Assembly: GCA_003165335.1 (NCBI GenBank)
Contig: PLTD01000022.1
Location: forward strand, 1 to 59,365
Direction: 5' to 3'
From: Rhodospirillales bacterium
GTDB lineage: Bacteria > Pseudomonadota > Alphaproteobacteria > BOG-932 > Roseiterribacteraceae
DNA length: 59,365 bases
Position 1 is the stretch's first letter; the number at the start of each line of letters is the position of its first letter. A program made the translations under genes and the position numbers. This document shows positions 53,681 to 57,791 of the stretch, in pieces. The notes beneath the pieces are model-generated. The model was not told the DNA's origin. It made no database searches and saw only the letters and a program-made list of their open reading frames with translations.

Positions 53681-54364
53681 TCATCCAAGAGCTTCGACCA
53701 AATGTTGCGAATTCGAAACCGATCCGAAGACCCCGCCCTGCATTTTTACCATGCGAATTGCGTGGTCGTGATTGGCCCTGTCGGTTGCGGCACAACAATC
53801 CTCGAGCAACAGGCACTCGAAACCGCGATCGTTGGCCTCGCGCATCGTCGTATGCACGCGGACATCCGTCGTGATCCCCGTCAGCACGATATTGGTGATT
53901 GCGCGCGTGCGCAGGATCAGTTCCAGATCCGTCGCGCAGAACGATCCCTTTCCCGGCTTGTCGATAATCGGTTCGCCCGCCAAGGGGGAAAGTTCGGGAA
54001 TGATGTTCCAGCCCGGCTCGCCACGCACCAGAATGCGCCCGCAGGGGCCGGGATCCCCGATGCCGGCCCCGATTCGGCGCGACCGCCAGCGTTTGTTTGC
54101 CGGCAAGTCGGACAGATCGGGCCGATGGCCTTCGCGCGTATGGATCACGTGGTATCCCTTGGCGCGCATGACATCCAGCACAAACCCTATCGGCGCGATC
54201 GGCGCCCGGGTCAGCGACAAATCATAACCCATGCTGTCGACATAGCCGCCAGGCCCGCAGAAATCCGTCTGCATGTCGATAATAATCAGCGCCGTATTCG
54301 CAGGCGAAAGGCTTCCGTCAAATGGCCAGGGATAAGGATCTGCAATAACAGTGCGATCGGTCAT
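53681..54364 (-). CDS. Isochorismatase-family cysteine hydrolase lacking the catalytic Cys
   Basis: A 227-aa protein close to biuret/ureidoacrylate-type amidohydrolases: [22 protein letters not shown] (catalytic Asp), PGKGSF (Lys) and [29 protein letters not shown]. In active relatives the last motif reads [14 protein letters not shown]. Here CGC encodes Arg where TGC encodes the nucleophilic Cys. It is expected to be inactive in the usual chemistry or to have a new role. No frame break is seen. An AT-rich upstream region with a palindrome suggests active control. Confidence 0.88.
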
Positions 54365-55135: not shown

Positions 55136-55441
55136 TTACTTGGACATGCTGTCCTTGTCGTCTTTCTTCATCGTGTCTTTGGACATGCTGTCCTTCGACA
55201 TCGTGTCCTTCTTCATCGAATCCTTGGCCATCGTGTCTTTAGCCATCGTATCCTTTTTCATGCTGTCCTTGGCCATGGTGTCTTTGGCCATCGTGTCCTT
55301 CTTCATCGAATCCTTCGACATGCTGTCCTTGGACATCGTGTCCTTGGATGCGTCCTGAGCGAAAGAGACGGGCGAGAAGGCCAGGCCGAAAGATACGGCG
55401 ACAGCTGAAACGGCGAGGGTCGTGGCTTTAAAACTGAACAT
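55136..55441 (-). CDS. Secreted pentapeptide MXKDX-repeat protein (methionine-rich)
   Basis: A 101-aa protein. A signal peptide (MFSFKATTLAVSAVAVSFGLAFSPVSFA, cleavage before Q29) precedes a mature part of 73 residues, almost entirely a pentamer repeat of KD-[ST]-M-[SAK], with 13 Met. This is the MXKDX pentapeptide family. The DNA is a 15-bp tandem array. Exposed Met in such proteins can be oxidised and re-reduced: the MrpX peptide of Azospira suillum scavenges hypochlorite this way with YedY1. A YedY-like gene and its cytochrome lie directly upstream. A sigma-F type promoter matches at 55495-55520. Confidence 0.9.
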   Translation of the reverse strand: MFSFKATTLAVSAVAVSFGLAFSPVSFAQDASKDTMSKDSMSKDSMKKDTMAKDTMAKDSMKKDTMAKDTMAKDSMKKDTMSKDSMSKDTMKKDDKDSMSK

Positions 55442-55470
55442 TGACTATCCCCTTTATTTTAGGATGCAGG

Positions 55471-55486
55471 AACGGTGACTACCGTT
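55471..55486. promoter_or_regulatory. Inverted repeat in the MXKDX gene leader
   Basis: AACGGT-GACT-ACCGTT, 6-bp perfect arms, beginning 30 bp before the MXKDX ATG. It lies near the predicted transcription start of the sigma-F type promoter. It could be an operator or a short leader hairpin. Confidence 0.3.
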
Positions 55487-55494
55487 ACCGTACT

Positions 55495-55520
55495 TTCGTC
55501 CTGCGCTTTACGATGGTTAC
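55495..55520 (-). promoter_or_regulatory. Sigma-F (ECF) type promoter of the MXKDX gene
   Basis: Minus strand GTAACC (55515-55520), exactly 16 bp, then CGAA (55495-55498). This equals the -35/-10 consensus GTAACC-N16-CGAA described for Caulobacter crescentus SigF. It would start transcription about 45 nt before the ATG. Confidence 0.75.
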
Positions 55521-55536
55521 ATCATATATACGAATT

Positions 55537-56295
55537 TTATGATCCGCTGAACCAATTATATCCCTGGTCCTCCCAATAACCGCCCGGAAAATCATTGGTC
55601 ACATAAATTTCGGCGATTAACTTCGGATTCTTAAAACCGAGTTTGGTCGGAACCCGCAATTTGAGCGGATAGCCATATTTCGGCGGCAGCTCGGCATCGC
55701 CGTAATCCAGCGCCAGCAAAGTCTGCGGATGCAGCGCTGTCGCCATATCGATGCTGGAATAATATTTGTCCGCGCATTTGAAGCCGACATATTTGGCCCG
55801 CATATCCGCACCGACCTGCTGCAGGAATGTACGGAAAGGCGCACCGCCCCATTTGCCGATCGCACTCCACCCCTCAACGCAGATATGACGCGTCACCTGG
55901 CTTGTCTGCGGCAGCGCGCGTAGACGGGCGAGAGTCCATGGGGTCTTGTCCTCGACCAACCCCGATACCTGAAGCTTGTAATCCGAACCGTCGATCACCG
56001 GCGTCTCGTCTTCGCCGTAAAAGGCGTTGAACGGAAAGGGTTTGGTGATTGCGCTCTCAGGATAGACCGGGGCCAGCTTGTTCGGGTCGAACAGCGCGGC
56101 TTGGACCTTGTCGTTAAAACGCGACACGACCCAAAGCACTTTTTCGATATCATCGTCCTCGCCCCAATTGCACCCGGTCAGCATCGACAGAGCGCCGAAG
56201 GACAGCGCTTGACGCATGAACAGGCGGCGCTCGAGACGCGCCAGAGCTGGCCTCAAATCGGCCAGCTTCGAGGGCTTGCGGGTAAGGATGCTCAT
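55537..56295 (-). CDS. Molybdopterin-dependent oxidoreductase, YedY/MsrP-like
   Basis: A 252-aa sulfite-oxidase-fold protein. The N-terminus has a twin-arginine-like ERRLFMRQ followed by a hydrophobic stretch and LTGC, consistent with Tat export and possible lipid attachment. The molybdenum-ligating Cys is in TRHICVEGWSAIGKWGG. PPKYGYPLKLRVPTKLGFKNPKLI and YWEDQGYNWF are also typical. In the YedY/MsrP group this enzyme reduces methionine sulfoxide in the periplasm. It overlaps the cytochrome b gene by 4 bp (ATGA). The substrate is inferred, not proven. Confidence 0.9.
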   Translation of the reverse strand: MSILTRKPSKLADLRPALARLERRLFMRQALSFGALSMLTGCNWGEDDDIEKVLWVVSRFNDKVQAALFDPNKLAPVYPESAITKPFPFNAFYGEDETPVIDGSDYKLQVSGLVEDKTPWTLARLRALPQTSQVTRHICVEGWSAIGKWGGAPFRTFLQQVGADMRAKYVGFKCADKYYSSIDMATALHPQTLLALDYGDAELPPKYGYPLKLRVPTKLGFKNPKLIAEIYVTNDFPGGYWEDQGYNWFSGS

Positions 56296-56951
56296 ATCGG
56301 CGCTCCTTCAGGATCTTGGCTGTGCGGGTCGTGGGCCGGGGCACGGCCTGTAATCATCGGCGGAAGAGTGGAAGGAACCAGGGCCACAAGCACCAAATGC
56401 ACAGCGACGAAGCCGACGATCCCCGCCATCATCGCGAAATGCACGATGCGGGCAAAATCATAGCCGCCGAGCAGACCGGTCACGAATTGGAACTGCACCG
56501 GCTTCCAGATCGCCAGGCCGGAGATAACGACGCCGACACCGAATAGTATGACGACGATATAGAGCAGCTTTTGCACGGCATTATAGACGCCCAGGCGGTG
56601 CTTCAGTTTGAAGGTCAGGGCGGCCACGAAATCACGCCAGATTGCCCGGATGCTGAGCGGCAGAAAATCATGCCGGAAATGACCCGAGAGCATGCCATAC
56701 AATACATAAATTAGCCCATTGATCACCAAGACCCACAGCGCCGCGAAATGCCAGGCAAGAGCGCCGCCGAGCCAACCGCCGAGCGTCAGATATTTGGCGA
56801 AGCGAAAATCGAAAATGGGCGAGGCGTTGTAGATCGCCCAGCCGCTCGTCACCATGCACAGAATGGCCAACGCATTGATCCAGTGGGTAATGCGGACCAT
56901 TAGCGGGTGGATGATTGGGCGCTTCGGCTTGCCTGTATTCATCAATGTCAT
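56292..56951 (-). CDS. Cytochrome b (b561/b6-type) membrane electron carrier, YedZ1-like
   Basis: A 219-aa membrane protein with about five helices and His residues placed for haem b (VRITHWINALAILCMVTSGW, GALAWHFAALWVLVING, GYDFARIVHFAMMAGIVGFVAVHLVLV). It belongs to the cytochrome b561/Ni-hydrogenase b-type family and carries quinone electrons to the periplasmic molybdoenzyme encoded next (ATGA overlap). Upstream at 56989-57013 is a sigma-F-like promoter with 15-bp spacing. Confidence 0.9.
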   Translation of the reverse strand: MTLMNTGKPKRPIIHPLMVRITHWINALAILCMVTSGWAIYNASPIFDFRFAKYLTLGGWLGGALAWHFAALWVLVINGLIYVLYGMLSGHFRHDFLPLSIRAIWRDFVAALTFKLKHRLGVYNAVQKLLYIVVILFGVGVVISGLAIWKPVQFQFVTGLLGGYDFARIVHFAMMAGIVGFVAVHLVLVALVPSTLPPMITGRAPAHDPHSQDPEGAPI

Positions 56952-56988
56952 CGACCGCCCCTTCGCGGATATTGCCTACGCCGGGTTG

Positions 56989-57013
56989 TTCGCGGCCGCG
57001 CGAGAAAGGTTAC
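56989..57013 (-). promoter_or_regulatory. Sigma-F type promoter of the cytochrome b/molybdoenzyme operon
   Basis: Minus strand GTAACC (57008-57013), 15 bp, CGAA (56989-56992). The spacing is one base shorter than the 16-bp consensus. The other GTAACC sites I saw in the window (in purD, the UbiH-type gene, the receptor remnant and the PPOX gene) lack CGAA at 15-16 bp, so the match next to this locus is notable. Confidence 0.6.
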
Positions 57014-57090: not shown

Positions 57091-57318
57091 ATGGTCACAA
57101 TGTTTCGCGGTTCCAACTGGAAGATTGCGGTCTACGGCCGAGACCATGGCAAACCGCATTTTCATATTGAGGGCGCGGATTTTCGTTGCTCGGTTTCGAT
57201 TGCCGATTTCGAAAGGATTGTGGGCTCGGTGCCGCCATTGGTTATGCGCGAGGCGTTGGCATGGGCACGCCTGAATCAGGGGGCGCTTATGCAGACGTGG
57301 CAGGAGTTGAACGGATGA
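57091..57318 (+). CDS. DUF4160 domain protein
   Basis: A 75-aa protein (FRGSNWKIAVYGRDHGKPHFHIEG), the HxH-bearing DUF4160 family, usually encoded beside a DUF2442 protein. Such pairs look like toxin-antitoxin units, but none is well characterised. ATG 57091 and 57100 are both possible. It overlaps the DUF2442 start by 4 bp (ATGA). Confidence 0.9.
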   Translation: MVTMFRGSNWKIAVYGRDHGKPHFHIEGADFRCSVSIADFERIVGSVPPLVMREALAWARLNQGALMQTWQELNG

Positions 57319-57791
57319 ATATCACCGACAAAACGAGAACAATTACAAGCGCCCAAGCGATCGGGCCCGTCAGTCTGAGTCTGGTGTGGAGCGACGGGAC
57401 CGCAGCGGACCTCAATCTCAGAGGTTTTCTCGGGGATCGGGCGTTCGTCGCGCTACGCGCTCCTGCTGAATTCGAACGCGTAAAGGTCGGCGATTGGGGT
57501 CACAGCCTTGCATGGCCTTCGGGGTGCGAGATCGGGGCGGACACGCTTTGGCTCGAGACGCTCTCGGCGACCGGGCACGGCGATACAAGACTATTTCTGG
57601 AATGGCGACTACGCCACGCCCTGTCGCTCAGCAAAGCGGCCGACGCTCTGGGGATATCCCGCCGGATGACAGCTTATTATTCCAGCGGGGAAAAGCCGGT
57701 GCCAAAGCCGATCCTGCTCGCCTGCCGTGGCTGGGAGGTTGATGACGGGCGAAGTCTCTCAGCTTTACCAGAGCATCGGAGCTGCCGTTAA
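57315..57791 (+). CDS. DUF2442 domain plus C-terminal helix-turn-helix protein
   Basis: A 158-aa protein: N-terminal DUF2442-like domain (SLVWSDGTAADLNLRGFLGDRAFVALRAPAEFERVKVGDWGHSLAWPSGCEIGADTLW) and a C-terminal HTH (RHALSLSKAADALGISRRMTAYYSSGEKPVPKPILLACRGWE). It starts in the ATGA overlap with the DUF4160 gene. By layout it is the DNA-binding (antitoxin-like) partner and probably binds the 21-bp palindrome. The last about 15 residues, after the conserved CRGWE, are unlike the family and may be a frame-run extension. Confidence 0.85.
   Translation: MNITDKTRTITSAQAIGPVSLSLVWSDGTAADLNLRGFLGDRAFVALRAPAEFERVKVGDWGHSLAWPSGCEIGADTLWLETLSATGHGDTRLFLEWRLRHALSLSKAADALGISRRMTAYYSSGEKPVPKPILLACRGWEVDDGRSLSALPEHRSCR

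Follow-up and report, generated by a model that had tools for sequence, protein, structure and literature searches.

A likely SigF-controlled methionine sink with a YedY-like molybdoenzyme and a b561-type cytochrome in an alphaproteobacterial genome

The methionine sink is an established idea, also among alphaproteobacteria, having been described from Azospira suillum PS in 2015 and from Brucella melitensis in 2021. The Azospira system consists of SigF/NrsF, MrpX, and YedY1Z1 (Melnyk et al. 2015, as cited in PMC4623255 and PMC5748585). The Brucella BcrXQP-BcrS/AbcS system, which includes an MXKDX protein, is switched on by HOCl and required for resistance to it, and its ECF16 promoter has been mapped as TGTAAC...GCGAAA (PMC8315932). 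Further promoter boxes are known from Caulobacter, in which SigF has the consensus GTAACC-N16-CGAA and a YedY gene among its targets (PMC3511200), and from Bradyrhizobium japonicum, in which EcfF controls MsrA/B genes through GTAAC-N14-15 boxes and the EcfF-OsrA regulon also takes in a cytochrome c biogenesis-type protein (PMC3420878).

Here, we describe a locus on a 59,365-nucleotide stretch of DNA, hereafter the window, from a Rhodospirillales bacterium (GenBank assembly GCA_003165335.1, contig PLTD01000022.1). Genes, promoter boxes and their conservation, a SigF/NrsF pair, an MsrP-like motif, and genomic links to other methionine-sulfoxide reductases are documented below, and we consider it likely that the window carries a periplasmic methionine sink under SigF/NrsF (ECF16) control and that a YedY-like methionine-sulfoxide reductase fed by quinol recycles it. 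Put simply, the cell probably uses a small, exported, methionine-rich protein to absorb bleach-like oxidants, and a neighbouring membrane enzyme probably repairs that protein. Read along the minus strand, the locus starts with a box, followed by the cytochrome b gene, the molybdoenzyme gene, a second box, and the MXKDX gene (Table 1); the cytochrome b gene runs 4 bp into the start of the molybdoenzyme gene.

Table 1. Features of the locus, in window coordinates.
Feature	Position	Strand	Details
mrpX-like gene, pentapeptide MXKDX repeat protein, exported	55136..55441	-	101 aa; TIGR02953; ortholog in congener locus L033
Signal peptide of MXKDX protein	about 55358-55441	-	Sec-type; ends SFA/QD
Tandem repeat, 45-bp (3 x 15-bp) unit	55139..55345	-	Encodes DSM/DTM-K/A/S-KD array; TRF
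SigF (ECF16)-type box of MXKDX gene	55495..55520	-	GTAACC-N16-CGAA; ATG 53 bp downstream
Tat-exported lipoprotein-type molybdoenzyme, sulfite-oxidase fold (YedY1/nSor-like)	55537..56295	-	PF00174; Mo-Cys in RHICVEGWS
b-type cytochrome (b561/formate-dehydrogenase-gamma-like), presumed quinol-facing electron donor	56292..56951	-	PF01292
SigF (ECF16)-type box of cytochrome b-molybdoenzyme operon	56989..57013	-	GTAACC-N15-CGAA; ATG 37 bp downstream

Two further parts of the window are recorded for completeness. Immediately 5' of the operon but on the opposite strand (57091-57791), a DUF4160 protein and then a DUF2442 protein are encoded as a toxin-antitoxin-like pair, the former with a weak match to the DhiT toxin model (36.2 bits; cut-off 100) and the latter with a possible helix-turn-helix tail. 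Positions 53681-54364 encode the biuret amidohydrolase BiuH (NF050097, 412.9 bits; cut-off 370).

The initial annotation had proposed a secreted MXKDX protein with 13 methionines among 73 mature residues, and profile search (TIGR02953, 102.8 bits; cut-off 41), signal peptide (cleavage site read by eye), and composition count (K19 D16 M13 S12 T7 A5 in the mature protein) agree with that proposal. The long pentamer array that it had seen is likewise found as a tandem repeat at the DNA level, with 45-bp and 15-bp periods (4.7 copies, 78% match). Methionine accounts for 18% of the protein, and the remainder is almost wholly K, D, S, T, and A. Copper binding is known among methionine-rich proteins of the periplasm, and the MXKDX protein might accordingly be read as a metal (copper) buffer under SigF, with the enzyme repairing methionine oxidation caused by metal. 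Caulobacter SigF does answer chromium and cadmium (PMC3511200), but we regard this reading as quite unlikely: neither Cys nor His occurs in the mature repeat (73 residues counted), the methionines are evenly spaced along it rather than clustered as ligands, and chlorine oxidants are the subject of the experimental work on the Brucella and Azospira precedents. Among related loci, the MXKDX arrays of L111 and L121 contain KDCM, that is, a Cys at regular places, and in Roseiarcus (L141, 6141-6443) the enzyme gene adjoins that of an exported 100-aa protein with 35% methionine after the signal peptide, which is not an MXKDX array.

A Tat-exported YedY/MsrP-like enzyme next to a cytochrome b had also been proposed. 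The neighbouring PF00174 (E=1.6e-30) and PF01292 (E=4.3e-20) proteins and the Tat twin arginines uphold the pairing and the export, but the enzyme does not pass the MsrP equivalog model NF003767 (76.8 bits; cut-off 207) and its partner is not MsrQ, there being no BLAST match between the cytochrome and E. coli MsrQ. Because RR23-24, the lipobox C42, and the Mo-ligand C139 are invariant in 39/39 aligned enzyme sequences, the best reading of the enzyme is a lipoprotein exported through the Tat route; N90 is invariant in the alignment as well. Of the solved structures, E. coli YedY (1xdq, 7e-25) comes closest in sequence, and the SorA and SoxC models score far below their cut-offs against the window enzyme. 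Its structure was predicted with a pLDDT of 80.1, and a fold search undertaken to part MsrP from sulfite dehydrogenase was not decisive, both being matched at E about 1e-13.

In sulfite oxidases, the Mo-Cys sits in a CxGNxR motif. That motif is absent at the Mo site of the window enzyme, which instead has CVEGWS, the counterpart of CVEAWS in E. coli MsrP; of the three further PF00174 matches in the genome, the two stronger ones (the weaker is C147) lack a CVEGWS-type motif. A SoxC-like molybdoenzyme of the genome (L028, 1042-2457, contig C53) has QEAGNSR around the expected Mo ligand, without a Cys at the usual CxGNxR place. The Mo site bears on whether the enzyme could be a quinone-reducing sulfur oxidase (‘nSor’) that passes electrons from a sulfur substrate through cytochrome b to quinone. 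A 2023 paper proposes such a direction for a YedYZ-resembling pair of Acetobacteraceae (PMC10715153); the window cytochrome has matches, though below cut-off, to models of hydrogenase cytochromes and of formate dehydrogenase gamma; and the fold search treats MsrP and sulfite dehydrogenases alike. We nevertheless judge a sulfur oxidase unlikely, given that the active-site motif resembles that of MsrP and is not CxGNxR, that the genomic partners of the enzyme are MsrA, MXKDX, and SigF, and that the electron direction in PMC10715153 is, by that source's own account, a prediction.

As for control, the initial annotation had placed GTAACC...CGAA promoters with spacings of 16 and 15 bp before both transcription units, and exact boxes are indeed present there, about 1.5 kb apart and both in promoter position. 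The 15-bp spacing is unremarkable because the Bradyrhizobium EcfF boxes are GTAAC-N14-15. Exact GTAACC-N15/16-CGAA occurs twice in the window vs 0.26 expected occurrences, and 2/100 shuffles reach that number. Genome-wide, the exact pattern is not enriched (26 occurrences vs 41 for the reversed control); the genome-wide count was therefore dropped as support, a box match by itself counts for little, and position and conservation carry the weight.

Conservation was assessed in a congener (G246, locus L033) that has the same layout and an enzyme 89% identical to that of the window. Its MXKDX gene is preceded by an exact box (GTAACC-N15-CGAA) 52-53 bp before the ATG, and its operon by a box with one mismatch (GTAACG-N15-CGAA) at the matching place; the flanks of the operon box are barely alignable between the congeners, yet the position of the box is kept. 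In the congener, an exact box also precedes an exported MsrB-MsrA pair.

Other boxes were considered and set aside. The one at the cytosolic MsrA gene of the window's own genome (L015) has no counterpart in the congener, and the one at a DsbD-like gene (L024, L171) is a doubtful SigF target, its CGAA lying inside a strong conserved hairpin. That hairpin (z -6.9 in L024, -5.4 in L171) lies in the gap that separates the DsbD-like gene from a gene for an exported glutathione peroxidase, and it overlaps the GTAACC-CGAA match. Separately, both congeners (L013 and L165) have a near-identical GTAACC-N16-CGAA about 110-150 bp 5' of a gene resembling rpoH, where it also falls inside a same-strand open frame.

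That no sigma or anti-sigma gene adjoins the window genes had been stated correctly: the pair sits on another contig. A search of the rest of the genome, as had been suggested, located an ECF sigma gene directly 5' of a PF06532 gene, with an overlap of 4 bp (L001, contig C28; the window is on C260). The latter is the one nrsF in the genome (53.6 bits; cut-off 26.8), and there is no exact box upstream of this sigF. For a wider view, at least 571 relatives were confirmed by a contig scan, from which 80 loci were kept and joined by five from a genome search, giving 85 loci. The cytochrome is near the enzyme in 85/85; an ECF sigma gene lies within the stretch in 13/85, and because not every relative has one, we do not take adjacent sigma genes as defining for an MrpX/BcrX-type sink.

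Across the 803 kb of these 85 loci, 29 boxes were found vs 3 in reversed controls. Where an ECF sigma gene is adjacent, 12/13 loci have exact boxes, vs 4/72 of the others (Fisher 1.7e-10), an association that partly reflects sigF autoregulation and includes related loci that are not independent. The cytochrome gene has a box no more than 300 bp upstream in L086, L102, L132, L138, L035, and L036, and the MXKDX gene has one equally close upstream in L146, L147, L150, and L033. In L035, L036, and L086, a cytochrome b-enzyme-sigF-nrsF operon is divergent from an exported MsrA gene; exact boxes stand at both divergent units in L035 and L036, and in L086 an exact box was found only at the operon. 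The cross-genome search for promoters and genes proposed earlier returned a congener that keeps both boxes (one with a mismatch), along with the boxed sigma-linked loci. A reading of both window boxes as chance matches, with the genes under other control, agrees with the genome-wide frequency, which is no higher than in the reversed control; the reading is highly improbable in the face of two well-placed boxes 1.5 kb apart that are kept in the congener and of the boxes at 12 of the 13 sigma-adjacent loci. Three other alphaproteobacterial MXKDX proteins (L064, L065, L067) have neither an exact box nor a recognised molybdoenzyme within about 1.5 kb, and an ECF-like sigma gene is near the MXKDX gene of L064.

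An MXKDX-type gene occurs within 5 kb in 21/85 loci and is absent nearby in 64/85, so that the ancestral substrate of the enzyme need not be an MXKDX protein. An HprR-like regulator within 2.5 kb, together with an HprS-like kinase, accompanies 33/85 loci, none of which has sigF and only one of which has MXKDX. Plasmids carry the pair too: a Yersinia ruckeri plasmid is annotated with cytochrome b, molybdopterin oxidoreductase, and ‘pentapeptide MXKDX repeat protein’; a Klebsiella pneumoniae plasmid has the enzyme-cytochrome pair and a small hypothetical protein; and a conjugative Burkholderia contaminans plasmid has the pair, a small methionine-rich protein, and a DUF1109 protein. On the enterobacterial and Burkholderia plasmids of L151, L152, and L211, the pair and a small protein (MXKDX, methionine-rich, or unread) have insertion sequences nearby.

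In an enzyme tree built by a ‘quick’ method with SH-aLRT support only and some long branches, most MXKDX-linked enzymes, mainly beta- and gammaproteobacterial, form a 22-row clade (support 100). The window and congener enzymes belong to a separate 55-row group (support 93) in which methionine-rich partners are otherwise nearly absent. Mapping of MXKDX linkage, with three looser methionine-rich proteins scored as MXKDX, needs at least 6 changes of state; a separate pairing of MXKDX with the window enzyme and repeated loss elsewhere may both fit the tree. Because the tree places the window enzyme in a mostly MXKDX-free group and not in the MXKDX-linked clade, we tentatively propose, as a minority possibility, that the sink was joined independently to a b561-linked lipoprotein molybdoenzyme in an alphaproteobacterial genus. 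If so, the methionine sink would be a repeatedly assembled module, and the b561-linked YedY enzymes would represent a wide group of methionine-sulfoxide reductases that are fed by quinol and differ from MsrPQ. Elsewhere in the tree, the L034 (G277) enzyme is identical to that of L071 (Rhodospirillales), and L035 and L036 group with L086 (Sphingomonadales), placements that favour an alphaproteobacterial origin for the window.

The same distribution lends an appreciable, if lesser, chance to general periplasmic methionine-sulfoxide repair, with the MXKDX protein as one of several SigF targets instead of a dedicated sink. It would account for the 64 enzyme loci free of MXKDX, 32 of which have an HprRS-like two-component system, just as hprRS adjoins msrPQ in E. 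coli, and for the mostly MXKDX-free tree group of the window enzyme. The genus, however, keeps an MXKDX gene with its own SigF box beside the enzyme, and the composition of the protein is more what one would expect of a sink than of a folded client.

Under the favoured reading of a dedicated sink, the biochemistry and redox cycle, namely inducer, catalytic reaction, electron direction, and substrate pairing, are what we infer from gene content, boxes, and precedent. An envelope oxidant, most likely reactive chlorine species, would free SigF from NrsF, and SigF would then transcribe the MXKDX gene and the cytochrome b-molybdoenzyme unit in parallel. The regularly spaced methionines of the MXKDX protein would react with the oxidant to give methionine sulfoxide, which the molybdoenzyme, anchored in the membrane as a Tat lipoprotein, would return to methionine with electrons passing from the quinol pool through the cytochrome to the enzyme. 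The initial annotation had suggested an alphaproteobacterial version of an oxidant sink; the SigF boxes, the SigF/NrsF pair, the congener, and the MsrA/MXKDX links uphold it, but it is not new, given Brucella BcrXQP in 2021.

The locus would extend the SigF-methionine-sink system to another alphaproteobacterial genus, in which the repair enzyme comes from a branch that has received less study. It ties, by neighbourhood, a large b561-linked YedY family (at least 571 relatives) to methionine repair, under SigF in some lineages and apparently under HprRS-like systems in others, and offers a testable assignment for enzymes annotated merely as ‘molybdopterin-dependent oxidoreductase’.

Compared with E. 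coli MsrPQ, the window pair shares the CVE(A/G)WS Mo-Cys motif, Tat export, and a cytochrome partner in the membrane; MsrP, however, is 31% identical to the window enzyme over 159 residues and has no lipobox Cys, and MsrQ is a different cytochrome from the PF01292 partner. The Bradyrhizobium EcfF-OsrA system resembles the locus in having an ECF16 sigma factor and GTAAC-N14-15 boxes over several methionine-sulfoxide reductase genes but was induced by H2O2 in that study, and the available part of its description includes neither an MXKDX protein nor a molybdoenzyme (PMC3420878). In domain content, the window pair is compatible with the Acetobacteraceae ‘novel Sulfoxide-Q oxidoreductase’ (nSor), a sulfite-oxidase-family protein with a formate-dehydrogenase-like cytochrome b, for which quinone reduction is proposed and, in the portion available, no MXKDX or SigF link is described (PMC10715153). 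The Azospira MrpX-YedY1Z1 system likewise combines an exported methionine-rich protein, a YedY-type enzyme with a membrane partner, and SigF/NrsF control; there, sigF and nrsF share one functional gene group within the island, whereas here (compared by description) the pair lies on a different contig, with separate SigF boxes for the sink unit and the enzyme unit. Brucella BcrXQP is also alphaproteobacterial and joins an MXKDX protein, a molybdoenzyme, and a membrane partner under an ECF16 promoter. It differs in its single bcrXQP transcript, in which the MXKDX gene is named first (here, the MXKDX gene is last and has its own promoter), in its adjacent sigma genes, and, again by description, in enzymes that are MsrQP homologues where the window has a PF01292 cytochrome. 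The locus described here is set apart by an enzyme below the MsrP cut-off, a b561-type cytochrome, and a position outside the main MXKDX-linked clade.
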